The translations under genes were made by a program, and so were the position numbers. This document shows, in pieces, positions 5,824 through 22,236 of a stretch of 33,074 bases of DNA. The DNA is from Candidatus Omnitrophota bacterium (GTDB lineage: Bacteria; Omnitrophota; Gorgyraeia; Aquiviventales; Aquiviventaceae): assembly GCA_023247275.1 (NCBI GenBank), contig JAHFGT010000020.1, positions 1 to 33,074 of the forward strand, read 5' to 3'. Each line of letters begins with the position of its first letter. Position 1 is the stretch's first letter. Below the pieces are notes generated by a model. It was not told the DNA's origin, did no database searches, and saw only the letters and a program-made list of their open reading frames with translations.

Positions 5824-7337
5824 CGTCGACCTCGAACGATGGCGTCAACCAGCCCTTCGATGGTTGAGACCGAGGCTTCAATCGCGACACGGCCACCACA
5901 GGATCGGATGGCTTGCGAGGTCACCGGGCCAATCGAAGCAAACCGAAGATGACGAAACTGCGCACCACGCCCGCCGGCTCGCAACGCCTCATGCAAATGG
6001 TGGACACAACTGGCAGAGGTCACGGTTACCAGATGGAATGGGCGCTGGAAGAGCAGCTTTACCCCGGCGGAAAATCCCTTAGGCCTGATCGTCTGATACA
6101 CCGGGATGTTGCGAACCTGCATCCCGCGTTGCCGCAGCCCGGCCTCGAGCGTGTCACGGCTGTCCAACGCGGCGAAGATCACCGCCCGCTTGCCCTTGAG
6201 TAGACGAGACGGCAATTCATCCAGCAGCCCTTCTTGACGATAGTGAGATGGGATAAAGTCGACATGCAACCCAAGTGATTCGATGGCTTCCGCTGTCTTT
6301 GGCCCGATGGCGGCGATATGGCATCCGGCCAGTTTCCGCAGATCCTTCCGAAGCGGTTTGAGCAAGCGCTGAAACCAGGCCACACCTTCAGGGCTCGTGA
6401 AGAACACCCAGTCGGTCTGCGCCAGCTCCTGGACCGCGTGCGCGAACTGGCCATTGGTGTGGATCGGAGCCTGTTCGATCGCAGCCAACGCTTCAACATG
6501 GGCGCCGAGCGATTCAAGCTGCTCGGTAAGCGACCCGCGTTTTACGCTGGCCCGCGTGACAAGGATTCGCTTGCCGAACAGCGGCTTGGATTCAAACCAG
6601 CGTAACGTTGATCGGAGTCGAACCACATCGCCCACGATGAGAATCGCCGGCGGTCTGATGGCGGCGCGTCGCGCGTTGCGCGTCATCGTCCGGAGCGTTC
6701 CGGTGAGGGTGCGCTGCGTGGGATAGGTGCCCCACTCGATAATCGCGCATGGGGTGTGCGCCGCACGGCCATGGCGAACCAGCTGCGCCACAATGCGCGG
6801 CAGCGTGCGGACCGCCATCAGACAGACGACGGTGTCGCAACCGGTCGCGAGCTGGTCCCAGCGAATGGCGCTCGCGCCTTTGGCCGGATCTTCATGACCG
6901 GTCAAGATTCCAACGGATGACGCATAGCCCCGATGGGTCAGCGGGATTCCAGCGTACGCTGGGACGGCGATCGCGCTGGTCACACCCGGCACGATCTCAA
7001 ACCGGATTCTCGCCTTGGCCAACGCCAGCGCCTCTTCCCCGCCTCGGCCAAACAGAAACGGATCACCGCCCTTGAGCCGAACCACCGTCTGACCAGCGCG
7101 AGCCTCTCGGATGAGCAGTCGATTAATCATCGCCTGGCTGGCGTCTGGATGGTCTGATTCTTTGCCGACGTAGATGCGTTTGGCGTTCGCAGAGCAGTGG
7201 GCCAGCAGCCGGGCGTTGACCAGGTGGTCATAGACCACCACATCCGCCTGGCGCAGCAGCTGCTGTCCCCTGACGGTCAAGAGTCCAGGATCCCCAGGAC
7301 CTGCACCAACCAGATAGACGATCCCGTTCTGTTTCAT
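5820..7337 (-). CDS. cobA-hemD: Fused uroporphyrinogen-III C-methyltransferase / uroporphyrinogen-III synthase (CobA-HemD)
   Basis: 505 residues with two enzymes in one chain. Residues 1 to about 245 are a SAM uroporphyrinogen-III methyltransferase: VYLVGAGPGDPGLLT (7-21), VVRLKGGDPFLFGRGGEE (85-102), PGVTSAIAVPAYAGIPLTHR (117-136). From about 252, KPLFGKRILVTRAS opens a HemD uroporphyrinogen-III synthase domain that runs to the end. HemD closes hydroxymethylbilane to uroporphyrinogen III; CobA methylates it to precorrin-2. The same chain thus makes the heme/siroheme branch point and draws from it. With the precorrin-2 dehydrogenase at 10124-10774 this gives siroheme. The ATG at 7337 begins exactly at the conserved N-terminus; a longer reading runs through the tRNA gene and is rejected. 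It overlaps hemB as ATGA. Confidence 0.93.
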   Translation of the reverse strand: MKQNGIVYLVGAGPGDPGLLTVRGQQLLRQADVVVYDHLVNARLLAHCSANAKRIYVGKESDHPDASQAMINRLLIREARAGQTVVRLKGGDPFLFGRGGEEALALAKARIRFEIVPGVTSAIAVPAYAGIPLTHRGYASSVGILTGHEDPAKGASAIRWDQLATGCDTVVCLMAVRTLPRIVAQLVRHGRAAHTPCAIIEWGTYPTQRTLTGTLRTMTRNARRAAIRPPAILIVGDVVRLRSTLRWFESKPLFGKRILVTRASVKRGSLTEQLESLGAHVEALAAIEQAPIHTNGQFAHAVQELAQTDWVFFTSPEGVAWFQRLLKPLRKDLRKLAGCHIAAIGPKTAEAIESLGLHVDFIPSHYRQEGLLDELPSRLLKGKRAVIFAALDSRDTLEAGLRQRGMQVRNIPVYQTIRPKGFSAGVKLLFQRPFHLVTVTSASCVHHLHEALRAGGRGAQFRHLRFASIGPVTSQAIRSCGGRVAIEASVSTIEGLVDAIVRGRR

Positions 7338-7404
7338 CCGCTCATTTCTAAGGGCACCATTTTGCTTGTCACCTCTGTGTGCCCTTGTGCCTATTATGAA
7401 GAAG

Positions 7405-7478
7405 CGCGCCCGACGGGGATCGAACCCATAACCTCTAGCTCCGGAGGCTAGCGCTCTATCCAATTGAGCTACGGGCGC
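7405..7478 (-). tRNA. tRNA-Arg(CCG)
   Basis: A full cloverleaf can be drawn on the minus strand. The acceptor GCGCCCG pairs with CGGGCGC; the D arm is GCTC-AATTGGATA-GAGC. The anticodon stem is CTAGC/GCTAG with loop CTCCGGA, so the anticodon is CCG, reading CGG arginine codons. The T arm has loop TTCGATC and stem ATGGG/CCCGT. The discriminator is G at 7405 and no CCA is encoded. CGG is much used in the surrounding genes, so this tRNA is likely needed. It lies alone between hemC and cobA-hemD. Confidence 0.97.
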
Positions 7479-7483
7479 GTCGC

Positions 7484-7509
7484 CCTGCACGCCCGAGTCC
7501 TCGTGCAGG
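7484..7509 (-). other. Hairpin just upstream of the tRNA 5' end
   Basis: An 8-bp perfect inverted repeat (CCTGCACG/CGTGCAGG, 10-base loop) ends five bases before the mature tRNA 5' end on the transcribed strand. It could be part of the tRNA leader; a function is not shown by the sequence. Confidence 0.4.
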
Positions 7510-7571
7510 TGTGTAAGCGTGAAGCTTTCGTCATGCCAAACATGCAAGGGATCAAAAGCGTATAGGGCTCC

Positions 7572-7636
7572 CGAAGGGGAAACCTAGGTTTCTCCCTTCG
7601 CGGACGGCCGCAAATGTCATTGGATGGCGGCCGTCC
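7572..7636 (-). terminator. Two adjacent hairpins downstream of hemC, possible transcription end
   Basis: The 203-base gap between hemC and the tRNA is the largest non-coding stretch in the window and holds two strong hairpins. One (7602-7636) has a 10-bp perfect stem GGACGGCCGC/GCGGCCGTCC with a 15-base loop. The other (7572-7600) has about 13 bp with one bulge and a two-base loop (CCTAGG at its tip). Neither is followed by a clear T run on the transcribed strand, so intrinsic termination is only plausible. They mark the likely boundary between the hemA-hemC and tRNA/cobA-hemD transcripts. Confidence 0.45.
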
Positions 7637-7681
7637 TCAACCCCCTTCCTAGAGAACAACCGTGTCAAAAAGAGAGACCGA

Positions 7682-8596
7682 TTAGGAGCGGGCGAGCAAG
7701 CGGCTCGCGCCCTGGGATTCCAGTTGGGCGGCGAGACGCGAGCCGAGCGCGAGCGGATCAGTCATCGACCCGCGCAGGAGGCCGTCAACCTTGGCGCTGC
7801 CATCTGCGGCGACCACTCGGCCCATTAATGCCAAGGTGCCCTCATCGTCGCGAGCATAGGCGGCGATGGGGACACGGCAGCCACCGCCCAGTGCGCGCAA
7901 GAACGCCCGCTCTGACTCGACGCAGGCTCGTGTCGTCGCGTGATCCAACCGGCTCAACAGCTCAAGCACCTCAGCATCCTCTGCCCTGGCCTCGACCGCT
8001 AACGCGCCCTGACCAGGCTCAGGCACCATCAATTCGGTGTCAAGGTATTCGGTAATCCGATTCTGAAGCCTGAGCCGGATGAGCCCGCACGCGGCGACCA
8101 CGATCGCGTCGTACCGACCGTCATCCAGCTTGCGCAACCGCGTATCAACATTGCCCCGGATCTCGCTGATGCGAAGATCGTGTCGACGATTGAGCAACTG
8201 ACTTTGTCGACGAAGGCTGGAGGTCCCAACGTTGGCACCAGCCGGTACAGCGGCAAACAATTCGCCAGTTCGAGACACCCAGGCGTCGCAGGCCTGGTCG
8301 CGGTCCAGAACAGCGGCGAGGCAGAGATCGTTCGGGATCTCCAGCGGCAGATCTTTCAGGCTGTGGACAGCCAGATCAATCTCGCGACACATCAGCGCGG
8401 CCTCGAGCTCCTTCACGAACACACCCTCTCCGCCTAGGTGAGCCAACGACAATTCTGGATCGCGGTCGGCCTGGGCCTGGATGGTCTGGACCTGAAACCG
8501 CCGGTCCGGAGCGATCGCTTGAAGCTTGGCCTGCACGCTCCGCGTCTGGCACATGGCTAAGGCGCTGCCACGGGTCCCAACGATGAGGGGTCGCAT
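7682..8596 (-). CDS. hemC: Hydroxymethylbilane synthase (porphobilinogen deaminase)
   Basis: 304 residues. It joins four porphobilinogens into hydroxymethylbilane on a dipyrromethane cofactor. The cofactor cysteine is C240 in LGGGCRVPIAAYA, and the catalytic aspartate is D82 in HSLKDLP. The N-terminal IVGTRGSALA and VGTSSLRRQSQL motifs are intact. The ATG at 8596 has GAGGAG eight bases upstream, inside the hemA reading frame; a GTG seven codons earlier has no such site. It overlaps the hemA tail by 40 bases in another frame, so the two are translationally linked. It is followed by the two hairpins at 7572-7636. Confidence 0.95.
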   Translation of the reverse strand: MRPLIVGTRGSALAMCQTRSVQAKLQAIAPDRRFQVQTIQAQADRDPELSLAHLGGEGVFVKELEAALMCREIDLAVHSLKDLPLEIPNDLCLAAVLDRDQACDAWVSRTGELFAAVPAGANVGTSSLRRQSQLLNRRHDLRISEIRGNVDTRLRKLDDGRYDAIVVAACGLIRLRLQNRITEYLDTELMVPEPGQGALAVEARAEDAEVLELLSRLDHATTRACVESERAFLRALGGGCRVPIAAYARDDEGTLALMGRVVAADGSAKVDGLLRGSMTDPLALGSRLAAQLESQGASRLLARS

Positions 8597-9621
8597 GGGC
8601 TCAGCTCCTCGCGCCACCAGTCAAGAAATCGATCGACTTTCTCCTCGATAATCGCTTGGGATTGGCCCAGCGCTTGTTGGCGCTGTTCATGGGAATGGGC
8701 GACCAGGCCTTGGAGGTCGTCGATGTTAAACAGGTAGACATTCTCCAAGCGGCTCACGGCTGGGTCGATATTGCGCGGAACGCCAAGATCGATCAGGCAC
8801 AACGGGTGCTGGTGGCGCAGCCGCATGGCGGCTGCGACCTCGGCGCGTGCGATGATCGCCGATGGAGCGTTCGTGGAGGTAATGATGATATCCACCTGCT
8901 GCAGCGATGCGGCCAGCTCATTGAATGGTTGCGGTGTCGCGCCATAGCCAGCGGCCAGGCCTGCGGCGCGATCAGGGGATCGATTCATGATGTGCAGCCG
9001 CGTCACGCCTCGGTCGACGAGTCGGGTCAAGGTCAGCTCTCCCAGCGTGCCGGCGCCAATCAACAAGACGCTGGCCTGCGACAGTCGGCCGAAGATCTTT
9101 TCTGCCAGCTCCACCGCGACCGAGCCAACCGATGTCGCGCCGTGGCCAATCGCGGTCTGCGATCGCACCGCCTTGGCGGTGTTGAGCGCCCGCTGGAACA
9201 ACGTGTTCAGCGCTTTGCCGGTCGCCCCATGCTCCTTGGCCCATTGATACGCGTGTTTGACTTGGTACAGGATCTCGGCCTCACCCAGCACCATCGAGTC
9301 GAGCCCACTGGTGACGCTGAAGAGATGGCGGATGCTGTGCGGCTCGGTATAACAGTACAGTTGCGGCACCAACCCGTCGAGCGCGAGATGGCTGTGCGCG
9401 CTCAAAAATTGTTGGAGGCGATCGATGGTGCCATCTAGCGTGGGCACGCCAGCGTAGATCTCAATCCGGTTGCAGGTCGAGAGGATCGCCGCTTCATGCA
9501 AGCCAACGCGACCGCGCAGCGTCGCCAAGGCGTCAGCCAGTTGCTCGCGGCGAAACGCCAGCCGTTCGCGGATTTCAACCGGCGCGGAGCGATAATTCAT
9601 CCCCACCAGCACAATATGCAT
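8557..9621 (-). CDS. hemA: Glutamyl-tRNA reductase, lacking the C-terminal dimerisation domain
   Basis: 354 residues; well-studied family members have about 420. It reduces glutamyl-tRNA to glutamate-1-semialdehyde, the first step of C5 heme synthesis. The catalytic domain is intact: GMNYRSAPVEIRERLAF at the start, STCNRIEIY with the active-site cysteine, SGLDSMVLGEAEIL, and an NADPH Rossmann segment VLLIGAGTLGELT. After DDLQGLVAHSHEQR and the start of the long spinal helix (DRFLDWWREEL) the frame ends, its last residues being read from the first codons of hemC. About 65-85 residues forming the dimerisation domain are therefore missing and cannot lie downstream. The ATG at 9621 is chosen because it begins at the conserved N-terminus; earlier residues are ccsA DNA. 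Confidence 0.9.
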   Translation of the reverse strand: MHIVLVGMNYRSAPVEIRERLAFRREQLADALATLRGRVGLHEAAILSTCNRIEIYAGVPTLDGTIDRLQQFLSAHSHLALDGLVPQLYCYTEPHSIRHLFSVTSGLDSMVLGEAEILYQVKHAYQWAKEHGATGKALNTLFQRALNTAKAVRSQTAIGHGATSVGSVAVELAEKIFGRLSQASVLLIGAGTLGELTLTRLVDRGVTRLHIMNRSPDRAAGLAAGYGATPQPFNELAASLQQVDIIITSTNAPSAIIARAEVAAAMRLRHQHPLCLIDLGVPRNIDPAVSRLENVYLFNIDDLQGLVAHSHEQRQQALGQSQAIIEEKVDRFLDWWREELSPCDPSSLGPVAAP

Positions 9622-9647
9622 CGGACGACACAGGGTCGACGAGCCGC

Positions 9648-10118
9648 TCACGACACAGACACCCGACGGAGCGTACTCTGATACGGATGCGAAGTCGGCA
9701 ATAACCAACTCGCACCAAGAAACGTGAAGAGCACCAAGGTAAAGCCCAGTACGGACAACAGCGCGACCCGATGGCCCCGCAGCGTTGAGCGCAGCCGGAC
9801 AATCCACAGCAGGAGATAACAGGCCCACAGACCGAGCGCAGCCACCTCTTTGGGATCTGCCACCCACCACCGGCCGAGGATCACCCGGCTACCCACCAGC
9901 CCACATCCCAATCCAATGCTGAGCAGTCCAAACCCAGCGCTAATGGCCAGAAAATTGATCCGGTCCAACAGGTCCAGCGAGGGGAGTCGGTGGAACAACG
10001 CCCCCATCGTTTTTCGCTTTAACTGCCGCTCTTGCATCAGGAACAGCAGCCCGATGATGAAGGCGACGAGAAACGCCACATAGCTGAGCAGCGAGCAGAG
10101 CGTATGAATCAGCACCAT
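9648..10118 (-). CDS. Short CcsA/HemX-like cytochrome c assembly membrane protein
   Basis: 156 residues with about four membrane helices (roughly 9-27, 56-76, 92-110, 117-139). It matches the C-terminal half of CcsA/HemX proteins: MQERQLKRK after the first helix, LPSLDLLDRINF, the WWD-like segment GRWWVADPKEVAALGLW (82-98), GHRVALLSVLGFTLVLFTFLG, and a final SHPY with H144. H5 and H144 are candidate heme ligands. Full-length family members have about 270 residues and eight helices, so the N-terminal half is missing; the DNA before the start is the cysG end, five bases away. CcsA proteins present heme for cytochrome c maturation; HemX next to hemA modulates GluTR in some Gram-positives. Which applies here is not clear. 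Confidence 0.75.
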   Translation of the reverse strand: MVLIHTLCSLLSYVAFLVAFIIGLLFLMQERQLKRKTMGALFHRLPSLDLLDRINFLAISAGFGLLSIGLGCGLVGSRVILGRWWVADPKEVAALGLWACYLLLWIVRLRSTLRGHRVALLSVLGFTLVLFTFLGASWLLPTSHPYQSTLRRVSVS

Positions 10119-10123
10119 ACGTA

Positions 10124-10774
10124 TTAGCTGCCCTGATGGCGATTGAGCAGCTCCAGCGCTTCACGGCGGGCGCCGCGCAGATCGCCAGACTGGACAAGGG
10201 TGAACACCTTCCCACTGACCACGTCATCAAAATACCGCTGGCGCTGCTGGTACGTTGGCAGTACCCGCTTGGCTGGCTGGCGCAATCCGCCGAGGAGTCG
10301 CACCATGTGTGTATAGCGCGGTCCGAGCCGTTGTGCCAGTTCCCGCCGCAACCGCTTTGCCAACGTGGGGCTGGCCCCACCGGTGCTGACGGCGATCGTC
10401 AACGCGCCCCGCCGCACCCATGAGGGGGCGATAAACGAGCACAGCGGTTGATCGTCCACCACATTGGCGAAAATTCTGGCTTTTGCCGCGGCCGCAGAAA
10501 CCTGTGCGTTGACGGCCGGATCACTGGTCGCCGCGATGACCAGCCATGCGTTGCGCACATCGCTGGGCTGAAAGGATCGTGCCGCCAGCTGCACCCGTCC
10601 AGCCGCCGCCATGGCCGCAAGTCGGGCAGTGAGCGTTGGGCTAATTACCACAACCTGTGCGCCGCATCGGATCAGGGCGGTGACCTTTCGATGGGCGACC
10701 GCCCCTCCTCCAACGACCACACAGCGACGGCCTGAGAGATCAGCGAATAACGGATAATAGTGCCGATGGCTCAT
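10124..10774 (-). CDS. Precorrin-2 dehydrogenase / sirohydrochlorin ferrochelatase (CysG N-domain, Met8 type)
   Basis: 216 residues. An NAD-binding Rossmann motif VVVGGGAVAHRKV starts at about residue 19, and the NVVDDQPLCSFIAPS segment holds the conserved catalytic aspartate of this family. STGGASPTLAKRLR follows. The protein oxidises precorrin-2 to sirohydrochlorin with NAD+ and in many members inserts Fe2+ to give siroheme. No methyltransferase domain is attached; that activity is in the CobA-HemD fusion at 5820-7337. Siroheme serves nitrite and sulfite reductases. The start overlaps the panB stop as ATGA and the end is five bases from the ccsA-like gene. Confidence 0.9.
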   Translation of the reverse strand: MSHRHYYPLFADLSGRRCVVVGGGAVAHRKVTALIRCGAQVVVISPTLTARLAAMAAAGRVQLAARSFQPSDVRNAWLVIAATSDPAVNAQVSAAAAKARIFANVVDDQPLCSFIAPSWVRRGALTIAVSTGGASPTLAKRLRRELAQRLGPRYTHMVRLLGGLRQPAKRVLPTYQQRQRYFDDVVSGKVFTLVQSGDLRGARREALELLNRHQGS

Positions 10775-11634
10775 CTGACGTCGTCAGCTCCGAGTTGTTC
10801 TCGTAGACGAACCCACTCCTCCCCTGACATGGTCCGGGTGTGCTCAGGGCCTGGGAACACGCCGCGGTGCACCTCATCGACATACGTCTGGATCGAGTGA
10901 CGAATCGTCTCTGCGAGCCTGGCATACCGTTTGACGAACCGGGGTGTGAACCGTTCGTACAGCCCTAAGAGATCGTGCAGCACCAGGACCTGCCCGTCGC
11001 ATGACGGCCCGGATCCGATTCCGATCGTCGGAATTCGCAGACGTTGGGTGATGTCCTGCGCGACTTCAGTTGGGACGCACTCGATTACAACGGCACAGCA
11101 GCCGACTTCTTGCAGTGCGACCGCCTGCGCGATGATCCGCGCGGCCGAGGCCGCGTCGGTTCCGCGCATCCCGAATCCTCCTTCCCCGGCGGCAGTTTGC
11201 GGCGTGAGGCCAACATGGCCCATGACCGGGATCCCGGCATCGACGATGGCTTTGGCCGTGTCCTCAATGCCCTGTCGCCACTCCAGCTTGACCGCCTCAC
11301 ATCCAGCCTCTTGGAGAAACCGAGCCGCCTGCTTCACCGACTCGTCGACCGACCCACGCACTGCGAGGAATGGCATATCACCTACCAACAGCGCGCGCTG
11401 CACCCCGCGACGAGCCGCCTTCGCGTGGTGCAGCATATCCTCCATGGTCACCGGGGTGGTGGTCTCATACCCGAGCACCACCATGCCCAGCGAATCGCCG
11501 ACCAGGACGATATCCACCCCAGCCTCATCGACCAGCTTGGCCATCGGGTAGTCGTACGCGGTGAGCATGGTCAGCTTCTGACCCTGGGCTTTACTGGCCA
11601 GGACATCAGCGATGCGAATCTTGTTTGCGGACAT
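10771..11634 (-). CDS. panB: 3-methyl-2-oxobutanoate hydroxymethyltransferase
   Basis: 287 residues. It transfers the one-carbon unit of 5,10-methylene-tetrahydrofolate to 2-oxoisovalerate to form ketopantoate, the first step of pantothenate and CoA synthesis. Family motifs are MLTAYDYPMAKLVDEAG, VGDSLGMVVLGYETTTPVT with a metal aspartate, VGDMPFL, and GHVGLTPQ. GLYERFTPRFVKRYA appears near the end. Its use of methylene-THF ties it to the folate genes upstream; it follows the second core-MetE gene by 49 bases and overlaps the precorrin-2 dehydrogenase gene by four. Length and all conserved blocks are normal. Confidence 0.95.
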   Translation of the reverse strand: MSANKIRIADVLASKAQGQKLTMLTAYDYPMAKLVDEAGVDIVLVGDSLGMVVLGYETTTPVTMEDMLHHAKAARRGVQRALLVGDMPFLAVRGSVDESVKQAARFLQEAGCEAVKLEWRQGIEDTAKAIVDAGIPVMGHVGLTPQTAAGEGGFGMRGTDAASAARIIAQAVALQEVGCCAVVIECVPTEVAQDITQRLRIPTIGIGSGPSCDGQVLVLHDLLGLYERFTPRFVKRYARLAETIRHSIQTYVDEVHRGVFPGPEHTRTMSGEEWVRLREQLGADDVR

Positions 11635-11683: not shown

Positions 11684-12694
11684 TTACGCAGCGGTTCGGG
11701 CTGCCGACGGGGTTCGCAACCCTGAGCGACGGCCATTGGCCAACTCAGCGCGCACGGCTTGTGTGGCTTCGACCACCACGCGCAGTTTGCCAATCGCTTC
11801 CTCAGGGGTACGGGTTTTAAGTCCGCAGTCCGGATCGACATAGATCTGATCCGGCTTGAACACTTTGAGCGCCTTGCGCAACCCGTTGGCAGCATCCTCA
11901 ACCGATTCGATCTGGTGCGTATGGACGTCGACAATCCCCAAGCCCACCTCTTTCGGAAACCGGCGGCCTTTGAAGAAGCTCAACAGTTCAAAATCGCGAT
12001 TCGCGAACTCCAGGTCGATCTGGTCAACCGGCAACCGGTGCAGCTTCGGGCCGATCGTCTCAAAATCGCCGTAGCAGATATGCGTGATCGTCTTCGCCCG
12101 AAGGCCACGGGTGACGATCCCCAGCGCTTCGATGGCCAGGTCCATTTCCTCCGGACGGGTCGAAATCGCCGGCTCGTCGACTTGGATATACTGGGCGCCG
12201 GCCTGTTCCAGCGCTTTGGCTTCTTCACGAACCACCTTGGCAATGGCCAGCGTGGCTGCCCGACGCGACGGGTAGAACTCGTTGAACGACCAGTCCATGA
12301 TGGTGTACGGCCCAGTCAGCATCCCTTTGACCGGACGGGTCGTCAGCGCTTGTGCAAATCGCCACCAGTCGACCGTGACCGGCCGAGGGCGCCCAACCTT
12401 ACCAACGATAATCGGCTTGCGATAGTACCGATTACCGTAGGACCGGACCAACTCGCTCTGCTGAAACCCGGCCAGATGCTCGGCAAAATAGGCGACCATG
12501 TCGCCACGATACTGCTCGCCATCGACGATGATATCAATCCCGAGCTGTTCCTGTGTGGTGATCCATTCACGAGTGGCCTGCTCTTCCAGGGCGCGCAGCT
12601 GCTTCGGGTCGAGCGACCCCTTGCGAGCCTGGCTGCGCGCGGTCATCAAGTACTCAGGTTTCGGTAAACTGCCCACCGATGTGGTCAATAACAT
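11684..12694 (-). CDS. Core-MetE methionine synthase-like protein with intact zinc site
   Basis: 336 residues, equal to the C-terminal catalytic half of cobalamin-independent methionine synthase, with no N-terminal folate-binding half. The zinc ligands can be placed as H205 and C207 (THICYGD), E229 (IDLEFANRD) and C290 (VDPDCGLKTR). TTRPVKGMLTGPYTIMDW is a family block. The ATG at 12694 has AGGAG seven bases upstream; a GTG overlapping the previous stop is weaker. Single-domain MetE proteins include the folate-independent MesA-D families, which take methyl groups from corrinoid or other donors. I cannot assign which donor is used here. It sits between its zinc-less paralogue and panB, downstream of metF. 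Confidence 0.85.
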   Translation of the reverse strand: MLLTTSVGSLPKPEYLMTARSQARKGSLDPKQLRALEEQATREWITTQEQLGIDIIVDGEQYRGDMVAYFAEHLAGFQQSELVRSYGNRYYRKPIIVGKVGRPRPVTVDWWRFAQALTTRPVKGMLTGPYTIMDWSFNEFYPSRRAATLAIAKVVREEAKALEQAGAQYIQVDEPAISTRPEEMDLAIEALGIVTRGLRAKTITHICYGDFETIGPKLHRLPVDQIDLEFANRDFELLSFFKGRRFPKEVGLGIVDVHTHQIESVEDAANGLRKALKVFKPDQIYVDPDCGLKTRTPEEAIGKLRVVVEATQAVRAELANGRRSGLRTPSAARTAA

Positions 12695-12705
12695 GGGATC
12701 TCCTC

Positions 12706-13710
12706 TCACGATTCCTTGAACGCGCGAGCGGCTTCAGCGAGCCGCTGCACCTTGGCCAGGGCTTGACGATGCGGCAGAAACTCGAGTCCGCAATTCGGGT
12801 TGACATACAAATGATCCGGTGGCACCAACTTCGAGGCGATTCGAAACACGGCTCGGAGATCCTTCACCGACTCCAGTTTTGTGTTCCGAGCATCGAGACA
12901 TCCCAGGGCGAGCGCCTTCGGGATACGGCGAAGCTTTTTCAGCGCGGCCAGGGTGGTTGGCGACGATACCACATCCACTCCGATGATATCGACCGGTGCG
13001 TTCAGTAATTGGGAGAGCCTCCCATTGAGCGCCCCGAAATAGGTCACCACCGCGGTCTTCGTCTTCACGCCACGGGTCGCGATCTGCAGCCCTTCGAGCG
13101 CGAGCTTCATGTCGGTCGTCTTCGCCTTGCTCGAGTGGCGACCGCCTGGCCAGCCAAATCCGATGGCCGGGTCATCAAACTGAATCACCGGCGCACCGGC
13201 TGCGGCCAGATCTCTAGCCTCTTCATTGAGGATCTCGGCCATGCGGCGAACAAACCGACGCGGGTTCTTATAGTACCGATCTTCGCTGACCGCCATGACC
13301 GTGTACGGACCAGGCAGCACCGCCTTGACCGGGCGGGTCGTGCAGCTACGTGCGAACTGATACTCCTGAACGAGGATCGGACCTTGACGGACCGGCGCGC
13401 GATGCAGGATGGGTCGACGATAGTACACGTTATTATTGAACCATCGGGTCAGTCCGTTAACTTCAAAACCGTCCAGCCGTCGGGCGATCGGGGTGACAAT
13501 GTCTTCCCACCGGATCTGGCCGTCCGTAAGCAAATCGATTCCGGCCTGCTCTTGCTCCTGCAGAATGGCCCGCGTGATGTCCTGATACACCTGCTCCAAT
13601 TCCTCGTCCGTGATTTCCTGGCGCTGCCACCGGCTGATGGTGCCGATCAACCGGGTGCCGTACGCGCCTTCAGCGATCTTGGGATAGTTGCCGATGAGTG
13701 TCGTGATCAT
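12706..13710 (-). CDS. Core-MetE paralogue that has lost most zinc ligands
   Basis: 334 residues, similar in layout to the next gene: IGNYPKI start, TTRPVKAVLPGPYTVMA (124-140), VIQFDDPAIGF (175-185), YVNPNCGLEFLP (302-313). Aligned by eye to its neighbour, the zinc His and Cys become V222 and Y224 (AVVTYFG) and the Glu becomes D246; only C307 remains. A normal thiol-activating zinc site is therefore unlikely. It may be a partner subunit, a methyl-donor binding protein or an enzyme with a different chemistry. It lies 11 bases before the intact paralogue, so the pair is probably co-expressed. No strong Shine-Dalgarno sequence is seen at its ATG. Confidence 0.78.
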   Translation of the reverse strand: MITTLIGNYPKIAEGAYGTRLIGTISRWQRQEITDEELEQVYQDITRAILQEQEQAGIDLLTDGQIRWEDIVTPIARRLDGFEVNGLTRWFNNNVYYRRPILHRAPVRQGPILVQEYQFARSCTTRPVKAVLPGPYTVMAVSEDRYYKNPRRFVRRMAEILNEEARDLAAAGAPVIQFDDPAIGFGWPGGRHSSKAKTTDMKLALEGLQIATRGVKTKTAVVTYFGALNGRLSQLLNAPVDIIGVDVVSSPTTLAALKKLRRIPKALALGCLDARNTKLESVKDLRAVFRIASKLVPPDHLYVNPNCGLEFLPHRQALAKVQRLAEAARAFKES

Positions 13711-13970: not shown

Positions 13971-14654
13971 TTAGACGGCACACAGTTGCCCGAGCAACAT
14001 GTGTTCCCACCAGGATGACCAGTACTCGGCCCATCGATTGGCCACCTCGACTTCTGTCAACGTCCCCTCGCTGGCGAGGGCGAGCGGGAGGCTACGCTGC
14101 TGCACGGCGTCAGCCCACTCGGTTGGGAGCGCACGCGCAAGCGCTGGCGCGGCCGGCCGAACCAGCAACGACCCTTGGATCAACCAGGCACGAGTAAATC
14201 GGCGCACGGCAAATCCGGCGACCTTTCGATCGCGGACCAGGACCGCATACGGCGCCACATCGGCTAAACAGCAGGTGACGTGGCGGGTCGTTGAACCAGG
14301 ATACAGCACGACCGTCGCCGGCGTACCGTACGCTCCGCACAATCGACTGGCGCTCTGGCACACCGTCTGCATCAACGTATTGATGCCGAGTCCAAGGCCC
14401 AGTGGAATCACAATCGATACGGAGACATCGGTCCCATGCAGCGCCACTGCGCCGGCGGTGGGCCGCTCAATACACGCGACTCCGGCCTGAGCTGCCCAGG
14501 TCGGTGCGGCGTGTTTCCATCCATGGGACACGGCGATTCCAGGCCAGGTGAAGAGGCGAACGGTTGGCCACGCGTCATGAGCCAGTGATTCATCAAACGC
14601 CATTTGCTGGTCAATCGGCCGGGACGTTTCTACCAGGACTCGCCACTCTTGCAT
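13971..14654 (-). CDS. Lipoate-protein ligase / lipoyl-octanoyl transferase family protein
   Basis: 227 residues of the biotin/lipoate ligase fold. ERPTAGAVALHGTDVSVS (63-80) corresponds to the RRxTGGGAVxHxxxxxxS block. DRKVAGFAVRR (142-152) corresponds to the GRKIxGxAxRR block with the lysine K144 used to bind the activated acid, and WLIQGSLLV follows. The glycine-rich block is weaker than usual (AGA for GGG). It likely attaches lipoate or octanoate to GcvH, whose gene is in the same cluster; whether it uses free lipoate or octanoyl-ACP is not clear. Its ATG overlaps the gcvPB stop by one base (TAATG), indicating coupling. Confidence 0.75.
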   Translation of the reverse strand: MQEWRVLVETSRPIDQQMAFDESLAHDAWPTVRLFTWPGIAVSHGWKHAAPTWAAQAGVACIERPTAGAVALHGTDVSVSIVIPLGLGLGINTLMQTVCQSASRLCGAYGTPATVVLYPGSTTRHVTCCLADVAPYAVLVRDRKVAGFAVRRFTRAWLIQGSLLVRPAAPALARALPTEWADAVQQRSLPLALASEGTLTEVEVANRWAEYWSSWWEHMLLGQLCAV

Positions 14655-16132
14655 TAGCGTTGACCCGCCGTCGCCCAGTTGGGCGACCTCCCAGGTCTCC
14701 AGCGCAGATTCGGCTCGCGCGCGGCCTTGACGTCATCCAGTCGATTCACCGGTAACCGATGCGGCGCATGCCGGACCATCTCAGGATCCGACCGGACTTC
14801 GGCGATAATCTGCCCGAGCGCCTGCGCGAACTGATCCAGCGTCTCTTTGGATTCGGTTTCGGTCGGTTCGATCATCAACGCTTCTTCGACGATCAATGGG
14901 AAATAGACCGTCGGGGCATAGCATCCGTAGTCCAGTAGCCGTTTGGCCACATCCCAGGCATTCACCCCATGGGCGCGCACGGCTTTCATCGTGGCGACAA
15001 ATTCATGCAGGCACGCGCGGTCATAGGGCACCGGGCAGATTTCTTGCAGTTTGGTCTTGAGGTAGTTTGCGTTGATGATCGCCACCCGGCTGGCGCGGGA
15101 CAAGCCGTCGCGCCCCAAACTGCGAATATACGTATAAGCGCGAACCAGGACGCCGACGTTTCCATAGAACCCGTGCACACGACCAACCGAGGCGGTTCCC
15201 TCCTCTTGCCAGACGAGCGATTTACCGCGTTGCCGAACCCGCGGCAGTGGCAGCAGGTCGGCTAACGTTGACGTCACCCCCACCGGGCCTGCCCCTGGCC
15301 CGCCGCCGCCATGCGGGGTTGAAAAGGTCTTGTGCAGATTGAGTTGCAGAATATCAATCCCCATATCTCCAGGCCGGGCGACGCCTAAGAGCGCGTTCAT
15401 ATTCGCCCCATCCATGTAGACAAGGGCCTCCTGCTCATGCAGCAGCGCCGCGATGGTCTTGATGTCCCGCTCAAACAGTCCCAACGTGTTCGGGTTGGTG
15501 AGCATGAGCCCGGCCACATCGCCGGTGAGGCGGGCCTTCAACTCCCGCACGTCGATGAGTCCGTCAGGCCCAGAGGGCAGCTGCACCACAGAAAACCCTG
15601 ACAATGCGGCTGACGCCGGGTTGGTGCCATGCGCCGAATCCGGAATCAAGATCGTGGACCGATGACGTTGCTGTCGCCGGTGGTACGCGGCCATGATCTT
15701 CAGGCCGGTGAGTTCACCCTGCGCGCCCGCGGCTGGCTGTAGCGTAAACGCCGCCATACCGGTGATCGCACACAGCAGCTGTTCCAGTTCGTGCAGGAGC
15801 TGGAGGATTCCTTGCGTATGGGCGGCTGGCTGCAACGGGTGCAGCCAACTGAAACCCGGCAACGCGGCGACGCGCTCATTGACCCGTGGATTGTGTTTCA
15901 TGGTGCATGATCCGAGCGGGTAGAAGTGGGTGTCGATTGAGTAGTTGAGCTGTGACAGACGCGTGTAATGCCGGATGACATCCACTTCAGCCACCTCAGG
16001 CCATGTAGCGGCTGTCGCGCGCAACTGGTCGGGTGGAATGAACGCCGATGGATCGGATGGCGGTACATCATTTGGCGGCGGGACATACCCGCGTCGTCCT
16101 GGGATCGATCGTTCAAAGATGAGCGGTTCCAT
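14654..16132 (-). CDS. gcvPB: Glycine dehydrogenase (decarboxylating) subunit 2
   Basis: 492 residues. This is the PLP-bearing half of the two-subunit P-protein, with the lysine in QLNLHKTFSTPHGGGGPGAG. Other blocks are FYPLGSCTMKHNPRVNE near residue 70, DSAHGTNPASAAL and MDGANMNALLGVARPGD. With GcvPA it decarboxylates glycine and loads the aminomethyl group on the lipoyl arm of GcvH; the reaction is reversible. The stop/start junctions on both sides are TAATG with one-base overlaps, so gcvPA, gcvPB and the ligase gene are tightly coupled. Length is normal for the subunit. Confidence 0.96.
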   Translation of the reverse strand: MEPLIFERSIPGRRGYVPPPNDVPPSDPSAFIPPDQLRATAATWPEVAEVDVIRHYTRLSQLNYSIDTHFYPLGSCTMKHNPRVNERVAALPGFSWLHPLQPAAHTQGILQLLHELEQLLCAITGMAAFTLQPAAGAQGELTGLKIMAAYHRRQQRHRSTILIPDSAHGTNPASAALSGFSVVQLPSGPDGLIDVRELKARLTGDVAGLMLTNPNTLGLFERDIKTIAALLHEQEALVYMDGANMNALLGVARPGDMGIDILQLNLHKTFSTPHGGGGPGAGPVGVTSTLADLLPLPRVRQRGKSLVWQEEGTASVGRVHGFYGNVGVLVRAYTYIRSLGRDGLSRASRVAIINANYLKTKLQEICPVPYDRACLHEFVATMKAVRAHGVNAWDVAKRLLDYGCYAPTVYFPLIVEEALMIEPTETESKETLDQFAQALGQIIAEVRSDPEMVRHAPHRLPVNRLDDVKAAREPNLRWRPGRSPNWATAGQR

Positions 16133-17475
16133 TAGACGGCGTGTTTCAGGATCTTGATCAGTCGGTCGATCGAGTCGCGGCTGATGAGCTCAGTCACGCA
16201 CCAGAGCGTGGCTTGGGGCCAGAGAGGATACCAATGGGCCAAGCGATAGCCGCCGACAACGCCGGCGCGTAGCAACCGACGCTGGATCGACTCCAGATCG
16301 ATCGCCGGGTCGGCCTGCAGCGTGAACTCGTTGAAAAACGGTTGATCCCACATCAGGCGCAGCCATGGAATGGTGCACAACTGTTCTTGCGCGTAGTGAG
16401 CTTTGTCAAGATTCAGTCGGGCCAGTTCCGCCAGCCCGCGCGGACCTACCAGCGCCATGAAGATCGTCGCCCGCAGCGCCAACCAGCCTTCGTTGGTGCA
16501 GATATTCGAGGTGGCCCGCTCTCGCCGAATGTGTTGCTCGCGGGTCTGCAACGTTAAGGTATAGCCGCGTCGGCCGCTCTGGTCCACCGTACAGCCGGCC
16601 AGCCGCCCAGGGATCCGACGCGTGAGCGCGTTGGTCGTCGTGAACAACCCTAGCCCAGGTCCGCCATAGGCCGGCGGGCTCCCGAAGCATCGGCCCTCTG
16701 CGACGGCGATATCCGCGTCGTACGCGCCAGGCGGCTGCAGCACACCCAGGCTGATCGGATAGACCGAAGCCACGAACAACGCTCCCACCCGATGCGCCAG
16801 TTCGCCAGCCTGGGTCATCGGCTCCAGACACCCACACGCATTTGGTTGCTGCAGAATCACCGCCGCGACATCGTCGCCCAGCGCCTTGCCCAATGCCTCA
16901 AGGTCGGTGACCCCATTGACGCTGGGAATCTCCTGGATCACCGCCTGCGCGCCACTCAGATAGGTTGCGATCACCTGGCGCGCGTGCGGGTGCACCACCT
17001 CGGACACGAGAATTCGCGGCCGCTGGGTGGCGCGAATCGCCATGACAGCCGATTCGGCGACGCTGGACGCCCCGTCATAGAGTGAGGCGTTCGCCACGTC
17101 CATCTGGAACAGCTCGCAGACCATCGTCTGAAACTCATAGATCGCCTGCAGCGTGCCTTGGCTGGCCTCGGCTTGATACGGGGTGTAGGGGGTCAACCAC
17201 TCGCCGCGCGCCGCCAGCGAGTCCACCGCGGTTGGGATTCCATGCGCATAGCTGCCAGCGCCTAAGAATGCTGTCGCCTGCTTGAGCGAGACGTTCTTCG
17301 CGGCCAACTGTTCGCCCAGCTGGACCACGTCAGCCTCTGATAATCCTGGCAACAGATCGAGCGCTCGGATTCGAAGTTCAGCTGGCACATCGGCTAGTAA
17401 CTGGTCGAAGGAATCAACACCGATCGTCTGCAGCATCTGCTGCAATTGTTCCTCAGTATTCGGGGCGTAATCCAT
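16132..17475 (-). CDS. gcvPA: Glycine dehydrogenase (decarboxylating) subunit 1
   Basis: 447 residues, matching the N-terminal-half P-protein subunit. Recognisable parts are YAPNTEEQLQQMLQTIGVDS at the start, FLGAGSYAHGIPTAVDSLA near 70, and YTPYQAEASQGTLQAIYEFQ (98-117). NASLYDGASSVAESAVMA, PPAYGGPGLGLF and TSNICTNEGWLALRA follow. It pairs with GcvPB to form the glycine-decarboxylating enzyme. A 132-base gap with an inverted-repeat element separates it from gcvH, the widest gap inside the one-carbon cluster, while it overlaps gcvPB by one base. It may therefore have its own expression signal in that gap, though none is clear to me. Confidence 0.96.
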   Translation of the reverse strand: MDYAPNTEEQLQQMLQTIGVDSFDQLLADVPAELRIRALDLLPGLSEADVVQLGEQLAAKNVSLKQATAFLGAGSYAHGIPTAVDSLAARGEWLTPYTPYQAEASQGTLQAIYEFQTMVCELFQMDVANASLYDGASSVAESAVMAIRATQRPRILVSEVVHPHARQVIATYLSGAQAVIQEIPSVNGVTDLEALGKALGDDVAAVILQQPNACGCLEPMTQAGELAHRVGALFVASVYPISLGVLQPPGAYDADIAVAEGRCFGSPPAYGGPGLGLFTTTNALTRRIPGRLAGCTVDQSGRRGYTLTLQTREQHIRRERATSNICTNEGWLALRATIFMALVGPRGLAELARLNLDKAHYAQEQLCTIPWLRLMWDQPFFNEFTLQADPAIDLESIQRRLLRAGVVGGYRLAHWYPLWPQATLWCVTELISRDSIDRLIKILKHAV

Positions 17476-17607: not shown

Positions 17608-17997
17608 TTAATGGGTTTCTGCTTGGAGTTGTTTGGTGTACTGTTCAGCCGTCATCAGTCTCGTGAATTCGTCCGGGCTGACTGGGGAGATGGTATACAA
17701 CCATCCGACCCCGTAACAGTCCTGATTGACCACTTGCGGATTCTTGGAGACCGAGTCGTTCACGCGAGCGATCGTTCCAGACACTGGCGCATAAATGTCG
17801 AAGGCGGCTTTCACCGATTCAATGACGGCGACCGCCTCGCCCTGTTTCACCGACCGGCCCACGTTCGGCAATTCGACGAACACCACATCGCGCAGCTCTT
17901 CCTGCGCATGGACGGTGATTCCCACGACCGCCTCCCCGCCTTCTCGACGCACCCATTCGTGTGTCTTGGTGTAGAGCAGATGGTCAGGAGTCGACAT
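17608..17997 (-). CDS. gcvH: Glycine cleavage system H protein
   Basis: 129 residues. The lipoyl lysine is K63 in VIESVKAAFDIYAP, and LYTKTHEWVR opens the protein as in all family members. GcvH shuttles the aminomethyl group between the P, T and L proteins on its lipoyl arm. Its ATG lies inside the gcvT end (14-base overlap), so it is coupled to gcvT. The lipoylation enzyme is likely the ligase-like protein at 13971-14654. No L-protein (dihydrolipoyl dehydrogenase) gene is present in the window, so that subunit must come from elsewhere. Confidence 0.97.
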   Translation of the reverse strand: MSTPDHLLYTKTHEWVRREGGEAVVGITVHAQEELRDVVFVELPNVGRSVKQGEAVAVIESVKAAFDIYAPVSGTIARVNDSVSKNPQVVNQDCYGVGWLYTISPVSPDEFTRLMTAEQYTKQLQAETH

Positions 17998-19150
17998 GTG
18001 TCGTCAGCCTTCCTGGTGTTGGTGAGTTCGCCAACGCCGGTTGTCTGGGGTCCCCTTTCCAGAACGGTAGCTTCACAATCGTTCCGGTATACCATTGGTT
18101 GCGGACGGTGAACCGTACCGATGTACCGGGTGCAGCAGAGGCGGGCTCGACATAGCCCATTCCGAGCGGCTTGGCCAGGACCGGACTATACGTCCCGCTG
18201 GTCACTTGACCAATCCGTGTTGGCACGCCGTCTGAAACCGCGAACAGCGCGGTCCCGGTCCTAGGCACCGGGCCTTGGGACAACTCAAATCCGACGAACG
18301 CTCTGGTCACACCGGTCTGGCGTTGCTGGACCAGCGCCGACTTGCCAATAAACTCCGGCTTATTGATGGCAACCGTCCATCCGAGCCCGACCTCCCATGG
18401 GCTGGTTGCGGAATCCATGTCGGTCCCGTACAGGCGCAGGCCAGCTTCGATTCGTAACGTATCGCGCGCCCCCAGGCCGATGGGCTGGATTCCGAGCGGC
18501 TTGGCGGCGGCCAACACCATGTCCCACACCCGGACCGCGTGCCGGTCGGGGAGAAACAATTCAAATCCGTCGCTCCCGGTGTACCCAGTCCGGGCCAAAC
18601 AGGCGTCAGGTCCCATCGTTCGGATGGGCGCAATTTCAAATCGCGCCAGACTGGTCACCTTTGCATCGAGGACCTGCTCCAAAACCCGACAGGCTGTTGG
18701 CCCTTGGACCGCCACGATCGATCGACCCTCGCTGAGATCTGCGATGGTAGTCTGCCCGATGCCGTGCGACTGCATCCACGCCACATCGATAGCCCGGTTC
18801 GCGCAATTGACGATCACCAGATAGGCTTCCGGCCCGATACAGTACACGATGAGATCATCAATGATCCCACCCGACTCGTTCAGCATGAGGGTGTAGCAGG
18901 CTCGGCCTTGTGGCAGTTGACTGACATCGCTGGTCATGAGCCGGTTGAGTGTCTGGCTGGCCTGAGGACCAGTCACGAACACCTGCCCCATATGCGAAAT
19001 GTCAAAGATCCCTAGGGCTTGGCGGACCGCTCGGTGCTCATCCAGGATGCTGGTGTAATACAGAGGCATCTCCCATCCATGGAAGTCGGTCATCTTCGCG
19101 CCGAGTTGACGGTGCCGATCATACAATGCGGTCTTCTGTGGAGACATCAT
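17984..19150 (-). CDS. gcvT: Glycine cleavage system aminomethyltransferase (T protein)
   Basis: 388 residues from the ATG at 19150 (the next codon is also ATG; another ATG eight codons upstream at 19174 is possible). Family blocks are TALYDRHRQLGAKMTDFHGWEMP, GIFDISHMGQ, DDLIVYC and ARTGYTGSDGFELF. GLGARDTLRIEAGLRLYGTD follows and GYVEP lies near the end. It moves the methylene unit from GcvH to tetrahydrofolate, releasing ammonia. The start region has only a GAGAGAG purine run, so the exact start is uncertain. It follows metF after a short repeat-containing gap and overlaps gcvH by 14 bases. About 20 C-terminal residues (DPRQPALANSPTPGRLTTHV) extend beyond the usual end. Confidence 0.95.
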   Translation of the reverse strand: MMSPQKTALYDRHRQLGAKMTDFHGWEMPLYYTSILDEHRAVRQALGIFDISHMGQVFVTGPQASQTLNRLMTSDVSQLPQGRACYTLMLNESGGIIDDLIVYCIGPEAYLVIVNCANRAIDVAWMQSHGIGQTTIADLSEGRSIVAVQGPTACRVLEQVLDAKVTSLARFEIAPIRTMGPDACLARTGYTGSDGFELFLPDRHAVRVWDMVLAAAKPLGIQPIGLGARDTLRIEAGLRLYGTDMDSATSPWEVGLGWTVAINKPEFIGKSALVQQRQTGVTRAFVGFELSQGPVPRTGTALFAVSDGVPTRIGQVTSGTYSPVLAKPLGMGYVEPASAAPGTSVRFTVRNQWYTGTIVKLPFWKGDPRQPALANSPTPGRLTTHVDS

Positions 19151-19167
19151 CTCTCTCGAATTGAAAC

Positions 19168-19206
19168 GAGCCATTGAGCTACTGAGCCATTGAGCGTCCT
19201 CAATGG
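19168..19206. repeat. Direct repeat and hairpin at the metF-gcvT junction
   Basis: The 12-base unit GAGCCATTGAGC occurs at 19168-19179 and again at 19184-19195, a 16-base period. The second copy also pairs with CTCAATGG to form an 8-bp hairpin (19187-19206, 4-base loop) that covers the metF stop codon. It may modulate translation of gcvT or protect the message end; no function is shown. Confidence 0.5.
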
Positions 19207-20120
19207 GCGACTCCTGATTCCTTCAAGATGTCCGGGATCAGGTCTTCCCATCCCAGCGCATACAGATGGATCCCATCCGCGATGTCTTTGACCGCCCGGA
19301 TCAGCTCGGCGGTGACCTTCACGCATTCGGCTCGCTGATCACCCGCCTGCTCAAACCGCGTGATCAGCGGCTCAGGGACATGGATTCCCCAGACATGTTC
19401 ATTCATGTACCGAGCCATCTTTGCCGATTTCACTAACAAAATTCCCGCGAGCACAGGTTTCCCAAACGGCTTTGCCCGGGCCATGAACTGTTGCAATGGA
19501 ACCGCATCGAACACCGCCTGTGTCTGGAAAAATTGCGCGCCGCCAGCCACCTTTGCCTGAAACTTCTGCAGCTCAACGTCCAGATCTTTCGCGCCAGGAT
19601 CTGCGGCTGCGCCGATGCAAAAGCTGGGTGAGCCGGCGAGCGGTTTGCCGGCCATGTCCTGGCCTTGGGTCAACCCGCTGGCCACGTGCATCAGTGCGGC
19701 GGAATTGATGTCGAATACCGGTTTGGCCTCTGGATGATCGCCGGCTTTGGGATCATCACCGGTCAACAGCAGGAGGTTGCGGATTCCAAGGATCGCCGCC
19801 CCTAAGAGGTCGGCTTGCAAGGCCAGGCGGTTGCGATCACGACACGTCATTTGCAGGATCGGGTCGATTCCAGCATCCAACACCGCCGTAGCGACCGCCA
19901 GCGAACATGCCCGCATGATGGCGCCAGAGCCATCCGTCACGTTGATCGCATCGACCACGTCGCGCACACGGTCCACCGAGTCGAGGATGTCGGTCAGATC
20001 GATTCCCTTCGGCGGGTTGACTTCCATGGTGATGAGACATCTCTTGCCCAGCCTGTCCTGGAACCGATTCACTGGCATCGTCATCATGCGCGCATCGTCT
20101 TTCGTTGATGACCCGGTCAT
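19200..20120 (-). CDS. metF: 5,10-methylenetetrahydrofolate reductase
   Basis: 306 residues. It has the MetF barrel pattern: ITMEVNPPKG near residue 30 with the family glutamate, and DGSGAIMRACSLAVA. PILQMTCRDRNRLALQADLLG, RNLLLLTGDDPKAGDHPEAK, FFQTQAVFD and PVLAGILLVKS follow. Family role: FAD-dependent reduction of methylene-THF to methyl-THF with NAD(P)H or another donor, supplying methyl groups for methionine. The two core-MetE genes lie in the same direction further on. The ATG overlaps the DUF2059 stop as ATGA; alternative ATGs eleven and twelve codons later have no better ribosome site. Two methionine-rich residues (MMTM) precede the conserved part. Confidence 0.9.
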   Translation of the reverse strand: MTGSSTKDDARMMTMPVNRFQDRLGKRCLITMEVNPPKGIDLTDILDSVDRVRDVVDAINVTDGSGAIMRACSLAVATAVLDAGIDPILQMTCRDRNRLALQADLLGAAILGIRNLLLLTGDDPKAGDHPEAKPVFDINSAALMHVASGLTQGQDMAGKPLAGSPSFCIGAAADPGAKDLDVELQKFQAKVAGGAQFFQTQAVFDAVPLQQFMARAKPFGKPVLAGILLVKSAKMARYMNEHVWGIHVPEPLITRFEQAGDQRAECVKVTAELIRAVKDIADGIHLYALGWEDLIPDILKESGVAH

Positions 20121-20758
20121 GGCGTCGCGGGTTGACTCGCTGGTGCCGACGGTCCGGTGTCGTGAGTCGGCGTGTGCTGCGTGGTGGCCGATGTCGTGGG
20201 ACGCCGCAGCCGCTCTGTTTCTTCTGCGAGGATCTGTTTCATCAAGGCCATCACCTTTGGCTGAAGGAGCTCGCTGGTGTGCTGCATCGAGGACCGCATC
20301 AGATCTGGCATGACCTGAATCGTTTTCTGACCCGTGGGGGATCGGTAGAACGTGACCAGATTTTGCAATTCTTCCGTCGTGAAGTACTGATCATACAGCG
20401 GTTCGGCGACCTGCTCCATGATGGCGGGGAGATCAATCTGCTGCGTGTACAATTCGCGGAACCGCTGCAGGGTGTGTTGTTGTTCCTCCACCGCCAGTTT
20501 GCTGAACTGTTCTTTGGACAGACCCTGGGGACTACTGGTGAGCTGCGGTTCCATCTCTTGGATCATCTGCGCGTAGTTGTGTTCCATCTGGGTCAACATC
20601 ACATCAACCGTCCGGCTCGTCAGATTTTTCGACTGGGTGATGTCCAGCAGCTGATGGATCAACTGCCGTTTCTCCGGCACGATCGTAACCGGCTCAGCAT
20701 GGAGCGGCCAGGCCCATAGCAACACCAGGAGGCCTCCCACCTTCGTGCTCCATGCCAT
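20117..20758 (-). CDS. DUF2059-type secreted protein of unknown function
   Basis: 213 residues. The ATG at 20758 has AAGGA nine bases upstream and opens a signal peptide: MAWSTKVG, then GLLVLLWAWPLHA with a cleavage site after Ala near residue 21. The mature part is helical, with the DUF2059-like core PLYDQYFTTEELQNLVTFYR and SPTGQKTIQVMPDLM, followed by LMKQILAEE. A Thr/Pro/Ala-rich tail follows (after about residue 185). It is probably periplasmic. Its role is unknown; it lies inside the folate cluster, 25 bases after folD and overlapping metF by four, so it is co-expressed with cytosolic one-carbon enzymes without an obvious reason. Confidence 0.8.
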   Translation of the reverse strand: MAWSTKVGGLLVLLWAWPLHAEPVTIVPEKRQLIHQLLDITQSKNLTSRTVDVMLTQMEHNYAQMIQEMEPQLTSSPQGLSKEQFSKLAVEEQQHTLQRFRELYTQQIDLPAIMEQVAEPLYDQYFTTEELQNLVTFYRSPTGQKTIQVMPDLMRSSMQHTSELLQPKVMALMKQILAEETERLRRPTTSATTQHTPTHDTGPSAPASQPATP

Positions 20759-20783
20759 GTGCTCTGTCCTTCTCAGTTCTTGA

Positions 20784-21644: not shown

Positions 21645-21663
21645 TGCTCGCGCTGCGCCTATC

Positions 21664-22173: not shown

Positions 22174-22207
22174 CGGGTTCCTCTGCGACGACGTGTAGGT
22201 AAAAAAC

Positions 22208-22236
22208 ATTATATGTGAAACTTTTCACAGATTCAA
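22208..22236 (-). promoter_or_regulatory. Sigma70-type promoter for the fchA-folD one-carbon block
   Basis: On the minus strand TTGAAT (22236-22231) and a perfect TATAAT (22213-22208) are separated by exactly 17 bases. Transcription would start near 22201, giving a leader of about 27 bases before the TTG start of fchA. It stands out sharply in a GC-rich region. The spacer contains the palindrome listed separately. Confidence 0.78.
22213..22230 (-). promoter_or_regulatory. Rex-type operator overlapping the fchA promoter spacer
   Basis: The 18 bases read ATGTGAAACTTTTCACAG on the plus strand: TGTGAA and TTCACA half-sites with a 4-base centre. The Rex consensus is TTGTGAA-N4-TTCACAA, matched at all positions except the two outermost. 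A repressor here would cover the region between -35 and -10. The Rex gene is in the same window at 2746-3411. Confidence 0.7.

Follow-up and report, generated by a model that had tools for sequence, protein, structure and literature searches.

In full-length cobalamin-independent methionine synthase (MetE), the N-terminal barrel no longer has sites for zinc and homocysteine; the residues changed in the N-barrel of the T. maritima enzyme include Phe230, Tyr232 and Asp253, and Cys309 (T. maritima numbering) is retained in most MetE sequences (Pejchal and Ludwig, PMC539065). A form of the enzyme encoded by two genes is known mainly from archaea (Pyrococcus furiosus PF1268/PF1269, haloarchaea and Thermoprotei) and from Sulfobacillus sp. 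hq2; PF1268 and PF1269 are adjacent, form a complex and were termed split MetE (Price et al. 2021, PMC7857596), a term which a non-exhaustive text search of the literature returned from no other paper. In the screen of that study, an N component had to pass the threshold of the Pfam model Meth_synt_1 and to score higher with it than with Meth_synt_2, a rule which, according to its authors, excluded the likely true N component AMET1_0515 (PMC7857596). The requirement that Meth_synt_1 score above Meth_synt_2 therefore serves for screening and does not define split MetE.

Here we describe two adjacent genes in the window (the whole stretch of DNA analysed, 33,074 nucleotides, which is one contig from a Candidatus Omnitrophota genome with 86% completeness) which, with a probability of about 0.9, constitute a split MetE that is probably folate-dependent. 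Judging from sequence, one of them, which has no zinc site, encodes the half without catalytic activity of a MetE that uses folate in the ordinary way but is encoded as two genes. This reading draws together the zinc-site pattern and motifs of MetE N-barrels, a tree branch with 100/99 support, a partner recognised by PRK04326, a surrounding folate cluster, the conserved pairing of the genes and the fact that no other methionine synthase was found in the genome. The features of the pair are:

12706-13710, minus strand: predicted non-catalytic (N-barrel-type) subunit of split MetE, 334 aa (Pfam scores, N-barrel motifs, tree support 100/99)
11684-12694, minus strand: predicted catalytic (zinc/homocysteine) subunit of split MetE, 336 aa (PRK04326.1 and conserved residues)
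12700-12705, minus strand: GAGGAG, a Shine-Dalgarno-like site between both genes, read from the sequence, directly after the TGA at 12706-12708

The zinc-less open reading frame begins with ATG and contains no internal stops. The start of its neighbour is best read as the ATG at 12694, 11 nt behind the TGA of the zinc-less gene, an alternative GTG start lying at 12709. Pairwise alignment of the two proteins (34% identity, 332 aa) placed V222, Y224, D246 and C307 opposite H205, C207, E229 and C290 of the neighbour, exactly the Val, Tyr, Asp and retained Cys described in an earlier, sequence-only reading of this DNA. Comparisons between zinc-less homologues gave dN/dS values of about 0.08-0.19 (four comparisons), and the GC3 of the gene matches that of adjoining genes, which indicates that the gene is not decayed, as had also been proposed.

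The zinc-less gene contains the following short features:

13039-13047, minus strand: codons of V222-T223-Y224, a disabled His-x-Cys zinc motif (by alignment; Phe230/Tyr232 of T. maritima MetE)
12973-12975, minus strand: codon of D246, at the position of the zinc-ligand Glu (by alignment; Asp253 of the T. maritima N-barrel)
12790-12792, minus strand: codon of C307, the retained Cys (Cys309, kept in most MetE N-barrels)
13429-13446, minus strand: codons of R89-W90-F91-N92-N93-N94, the N-barrel hairpin motif (aligns with K117-W-F-N-T-N of E. coli MetE)
12883-12894, minus strand: codons of D273-A274-R275-N276, an N-barrel motif (aligns with NGRN/DGRN of the MetE N-domain)

With Val, Tyr, Asp and Cys at the positions of T. 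maritima Phe230, Tyr232, Asp253 and Cys309, the protein comes close to the inactivated zinc site described for the MetE N-barrel, and Phe follows the Tyr, as in most MetE sequences. The loss of the site is not due to chance, since none of 42 zinc-less-type homologues from Omnitrophota carries the His-Cys-Glu-Cys set, which catalytic-type homologues keep. The residues that stand in for the ligands vary in part: Tyr, Ser, Phe, Val, Gln or Met occupies the His position, at the first Cys position Tyr is found in 30/42 and Asn in 11/42, and the last Cys is retained in just 27. Two motifs typify the N-barrel, [KR][WYF]F-x-x-N and D-[AG]-R-N, and each of their key residues (R, N, R and N) is found in 41 of the 42 proteins; the sole exception, the protein of locus L054 in genome G158, has Ser, Pro, Cys and Ser at these four positions. 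Equivalents of the motifs occur in 13-14 of 14 MetE N-domains and are mostly kept in the N subunit of Natrinema, and at the same places catalytic barrels have SYGxR and DVHT or DIHS. Lys117 of E. coli, at the start of the hairpin motif, is probably the equivalent of the pterin-contacting Lys104 of T. maritima.

A tree of 51 rows (IQ-TREE, LG+C20 PMSF), in which one pair (Natrinema) represented the archaea and two MesD sequences were the only members of MesA-D, separated the two kinds of barrel with 100/99 support. On one side of this branch the zinc-less subunits stood together with MetE N-domains and the N subunit of the haloarchaeal pair; on the opposite side were the catalytic subunits, that of the haloarchaeal pair included, with MetE C-domains and MesD. 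The branch order inside the N side is without resolution, and the haloarchaeal N subunit is a long branch. Within the other half, the Omnitrophota catalytic subunits lie off the MesD branch and nearer to canonical MetE C-domains than the archaeal subunit does, a comparison that involves a single haloarchaeal pair. The label of core-MetE paralogue, which the sequence-only reading had given to the zinc-less protein, thus gives way to that of a MetE N-barrel on three counts, namely zinc-site pattern, motifs and tree position.

The same tree bears on whether the zinc-less gene could have arisen recently as a local copy of the intact gene and now be subject to drift or decay, as the adjacency of the genes and their 34% identity might suggest. 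Forcing the zinc-less and catalytic proteins of Omnitrophota into one clade was rejected by the AU test (p-AU 2.4e-5), barring misleading long-branch effects, and the purifying selection on zinc-less homologues and their conservation across the phylum speak against decay, so that a local duplicate is hardly credible.

The profile scores of the zinc-less protein require a comment, as it matched Meth_synt_2 (159 bits) better than Meth_synt_1 (87.5 bits, cut-off 27). The same preference was seen in seven other N-type proteins of Omnitrophota (8/8 scanned), all of which fail the published N-component rule; this counts against a split MetE and may also explain why these proteins are absent from the earlier survey. 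An AlphaFold model based on an alignment of six sequences was of mediocre quality (mean pLDDT 67). As a single barrel it matched both MetE structures and MesD (3rpd); because it does not separate N- from C-barrels, it was left out of the assignment of barrel type.

The catalytic neighbour passes the NCBIfam model PRK04326.1 narrowly (407.8 bits, cut-off 406), a model passed also by the catalytic half of the Natrinema pair. It has the ligands H205, C207, E229 and C290 together with the equivalents of S433, E484, D599, W561 and H694, and intact catalytic subunits of Omnitrophota keep S433, E484, R515, W561, D599, H641, C643, E665, H694 and C726 (E. coli numbers), as well as, mostly, the DMV motif. 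Among catalytic-type homologues, His and Cys are present in all, and Glu and the last Cys wherever the sequence extends that far, a short fragment (L046) having been set aside. At the position of Glu605 (Glu583 in T. maritima), the residue that contacts the pterin in canonical MetE, these subunits have Thr, Val or Ala, and their beta4-alpha4 loop is without the short insert of canonical MetE and without the pterin Glu. At the equivalent place the zinc-less subunit (window 11684-13710 for the pair) has a longer loop (DDPAIGFGWPGGRHSSKAKTTDMK), and the roles of this loop may have been swapped between the two barrels.

A phylum-wide draw of 384 Omnitrophota genomes contained both genes in 32, and 32/33 carriers of the zinc-less gene also had the catalytic gene; a search for relatives added eight further pair genomes, and those relatives whose records carry a name are MAGs of Candidatus Omnitrophota, for the most part from groundwater. 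The sequence-only reading, which had suggested checking this co-occurrence, regarded a zinc-less gene widespread without the intact one as grounds for giving up the partnership, and one solitary copy against 32 pairs leaves that partnership in place. The genes are nearly always side by side; besides the orphan in G158, the exceptions are L071, where 0.7 kb separates them, and L051 and L059. In these last two loci (L051 5688-11167 and L059 4340-9947, in genomes G098 and G346 of another family) the N and C genes are on the same strand about 3.5 kb apart and share intervening genes which, read from the sequence, apparently encode a LarE-kind ATP pyrophosphatase, an endonuclease IV-like protein, a tRNA thiolation-like protein and a chlorite dismutase/HemQ-like protein. 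Genome G003 has two copies of the pair (L074 and L095, the second cut by the contig end), about equally similar to that of the window, owing either to mixed strains or to duplication.

Full-length MetE was found in 41 of the 384 genomes and never together with the pair (0 of 32 pair genomes; expected 3.4, P = 0.02). MetH was found in 3 of the 32 pair genomes and MetF in 31. In the genome to which the window belongs, the two proteins described here are the only ones with PF01717, and there was no match to MetH, to the homocysteine S-methyltransferase family or to full-length MetE in the 86% recovered. As the Omnitrophota data are MAGs and this genome is incomplete, the absence of MetH is not proven.

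The orphan of G158 (L054, contig C36, 2680-3654, minus strand) lies in the order FTCD-folD-N-panB and has no catalytic partner, although its genome is 96% complete; that genome carries MetH. The orphan is a point against a split MetE, and it could indicate that the zinc-less protein has a separate role, for instance to bind another methyl donor or to methylate another thiol, and is linked to a core synthase by no more than a common operon. We consider this very improbable, since the draw holds a single orphan against 32 pairs and that orphan is the one copy with broken N-barrel motifs, as expected if the motifs serve the partner; it may be a relic that outlasted its partner, or it may have been put to a new use.

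In the window the pair is part of a run of genes in the order FTCD - folD - DUF2059 - metF - gcvT - gcvH - gcvPA - gcvPB - lplA - N - C - panB - cysG, which comprises, besides the pair:

21664-22209, minus strand: formiminotransferase-cyclodeaminase-like protein (FTCD), folate one-carbon metabolism (PF04961)
20784-21803, minus strand: folD, methylene-THF dehydrogenase/cyclohydrolase (PF02882, PF00763)
20117-20824, minus strand: DUF2059 protein between metF and folD
19200-20120, minus strand: metF, methylenetetrahydrofolate reductase, which probably provides the methyl-THF (PF02219, E 5.8e-40)
17984-19174, minus strand: gcvT (PF01571)
17608-17997, minus strand: gcvH (PF01597)
16132-17475, minus strand: probable gcvPA (named from its place between gcvH and gcvPB; conserved neighbour)
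14654-16132, minus strand: probable gcvPB (ORF named from sequence and position; conserved neighbour)
13971-14654, minus strand: lipoate/octanoyl transferase-like protein, LplA/B family (PF21948, PF03099; conserved neighbour)
10771-11634, minus strand: panB, ketopantoate hydroxymethyltransferase, which uses methylene-THF (PF02548; conserved neighbour)

The stretch from folD to hemC is kept across the family, as far as contigs extend, and a more distant genome (L070) retains folD - metF - N - C - panB. Methyl-THF is the product of MetF and the substrate of MetE, and the gcv genes and folD feed the folate pool on which panB draws; the presence of metF, gcv, folD and panB next to the pair therefore points to a folate methyl donor. 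Rfam gave just a tRNA in the window, so that control by RNA, for example through a SAM riboswitch, was discarded. After the folate cluster, tetrapyrrole genes follow on the same strand (window 4756-10774): hemB, a fusion of a TP_methylase domain with hemD, hemC, hemA, a cytochrome c assembly-like ORF and the siroheme CysG N-part. The fusion is a single ORF (5820-7547, minus strand) which joins a tetrapyrrole methylase domain to uroporphyrinogen-III synthase HemD, and the order cysG-hemA-hemC is kept in relatives.

The folate cluster is also relevant to the possibility that the pair consists of a core methionine synthase, folate-independent and similar to MesA-D, and a catalytically dead paralogue acting as its partner or regulator. 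Both proteins are single barrels of about 335 aa, their genes are adjacent and co-occur, and the catalytic subunit is without the canonical pterin Glu605, all of which would agree with this arrangement. However, a core synthase should be without a counterpart of the MetE N-domain, and here a protein which groups with MetE N-barrels and shares their motifs is encoded directly upstream; moreover, the catalytic subunit is off the MesD branch and has the MetE residues Arg515, Trp561 and His694 where MesD has Tyr, Thr and Ala. CdhD, of the CoFeSP-type family, was without a match in the 86% complete genome, which led us to reject both a Wood-Ljungdahl methyl donor and an enzyme of the MesB/MesC kind, expected to occur with CoFeSP (acsC/acsD). 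With metF next door in addition, we regard a core synthase as distinctly improbable.

The analogy with MesD and its partner, put forward in the sequence-only reading, does not hold either, as MesX is a DUF1852 protein and not a MetE barrel (PMC7857596) and the catalytic residues and tree position differ. DUF1852 is absent among the annotated neighbours of the pair; PF08908 (MesX, DUF1852) had no match in this genome, in a search whose control was without a match anywhere either. Of the partner role suggested for the zinc-less protein, a seemingly obligate partnership of an active and an inactive member is supported by co-occurrence and adjacency, and the assignment to a folate-independent core-MetE kind is not borne out by the tree, the motifs and the nearby metF.

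A split MetE would work as follows. In the catalytic barrel (11684-12694), zinc held by His205, Cys207, Glu229 and Cys290, ligands identified by alignment, would bind and activate homocysteine, as in MetE. The zinc-less subunit would dock face to face on this barrel and complete the cleft for methyl-THF, to which it may contribute the R-W-F-N-N-N hairpin. The methyl group would most likely come from methyl-THF made by the MetF encoded close by in the cluster, for which the glycine cleavage system would provide one-carbon units, and the heterodimer may be the only, or the main, methionine synthase of the cell. Heterodimer formation, the shared cleft, the methyl-THF donor and the role as sole synthase are thus predictions from homology and gene context. 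At the level of residues, two observations count against such an enzyme: the catalytic subunits are without Glu605, although the Natrinema subunit also has Thr at this position, and in the alignment the zinc-less subunit shows no clear equivalents of Arg15 and Lys18 of T. maritima, which hold the glutamate tail of folate. The details of folate binding may therefore differ from those of canonical MetE.

What is new here is the spread of split MetE in a bacterial phylum and the fact that a published screen would miss such N subunits. The short "core" MetE proteins of Omnitrophota would then be a likely misannotation, being catalytic halves of a probably folate-dependent enzyme and not cobalamin-using synthases, which changes the predicted methyl donor and vitamin needs of these uncultured bacteria. 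As fused and split MetE occur within one phylum, they form a useful set for asking how the one-chain enzyme originated. We rather doubt, without dismissing the idea, that the Omnitrophota pairs are pre-fusion survivors, a bacterial sister of the still-separate duplicated barrels behind one-chain MetE. This would fit with the lack in the pairs of the catalytic-loop insert and Glu605 present in the fused MetEs examined, with N subunits that seem less diverged than MetE N-domains (shorter stems, and a best score still with the catalytic model) and with the closeness of the catalytic subunits to MetE C-domains in the tree.

Among described systems, the MesB-like proteins of Chloroflexales are also MetE-family members with lost zinc residues (Price et al. 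2021, PMC7857596), but these are related to MesB and have FSHG, YCDQ or YREQ where the zinc residues would be, a distinction we draw from their description. MesD resembles the Omnitrophota catalytic subunit in being a synthase of the MetE family with one barrel that depends on another protein (MesX), and differs in its branch and at R515, W561 and H694. Full-length MetE of E. coli and T. maritima has the same two homologous barrels, one with His-Cys-Glu-Cys and the other with a disabled x-Tyr-Asp-Cys, with DMV, Trp561 and His694 in the catalytic barrel and WF-x-x-N and D-G-R-N in the N barrel; in contrast, the Omnitrophota pair consists of two polypeptides without a linker and its catalytic loop has neither the insert nor Glu605. 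Closest are the split MetEs of archaea and Sulfobacillus, which likewise consist of two adjacent single barrels with a zinc site in the second only; in archaea, as here, the catalytic subunit falls in PRK04326 and the enzyme is usually the sole type of methionine synthase in a genome. In the Natrinema pair (L079), N is also upstream of C, the two genes overlapping by a few bases in the annotation, and Thr occupies the Glu605 position. Unlike the archaeal systems, the Omnitrophota pair is bacterial, lies in one family within a metF-gcv-folD-panB folate cluster and has N subunits which score higher with the Pfam model of the catalytic domain.
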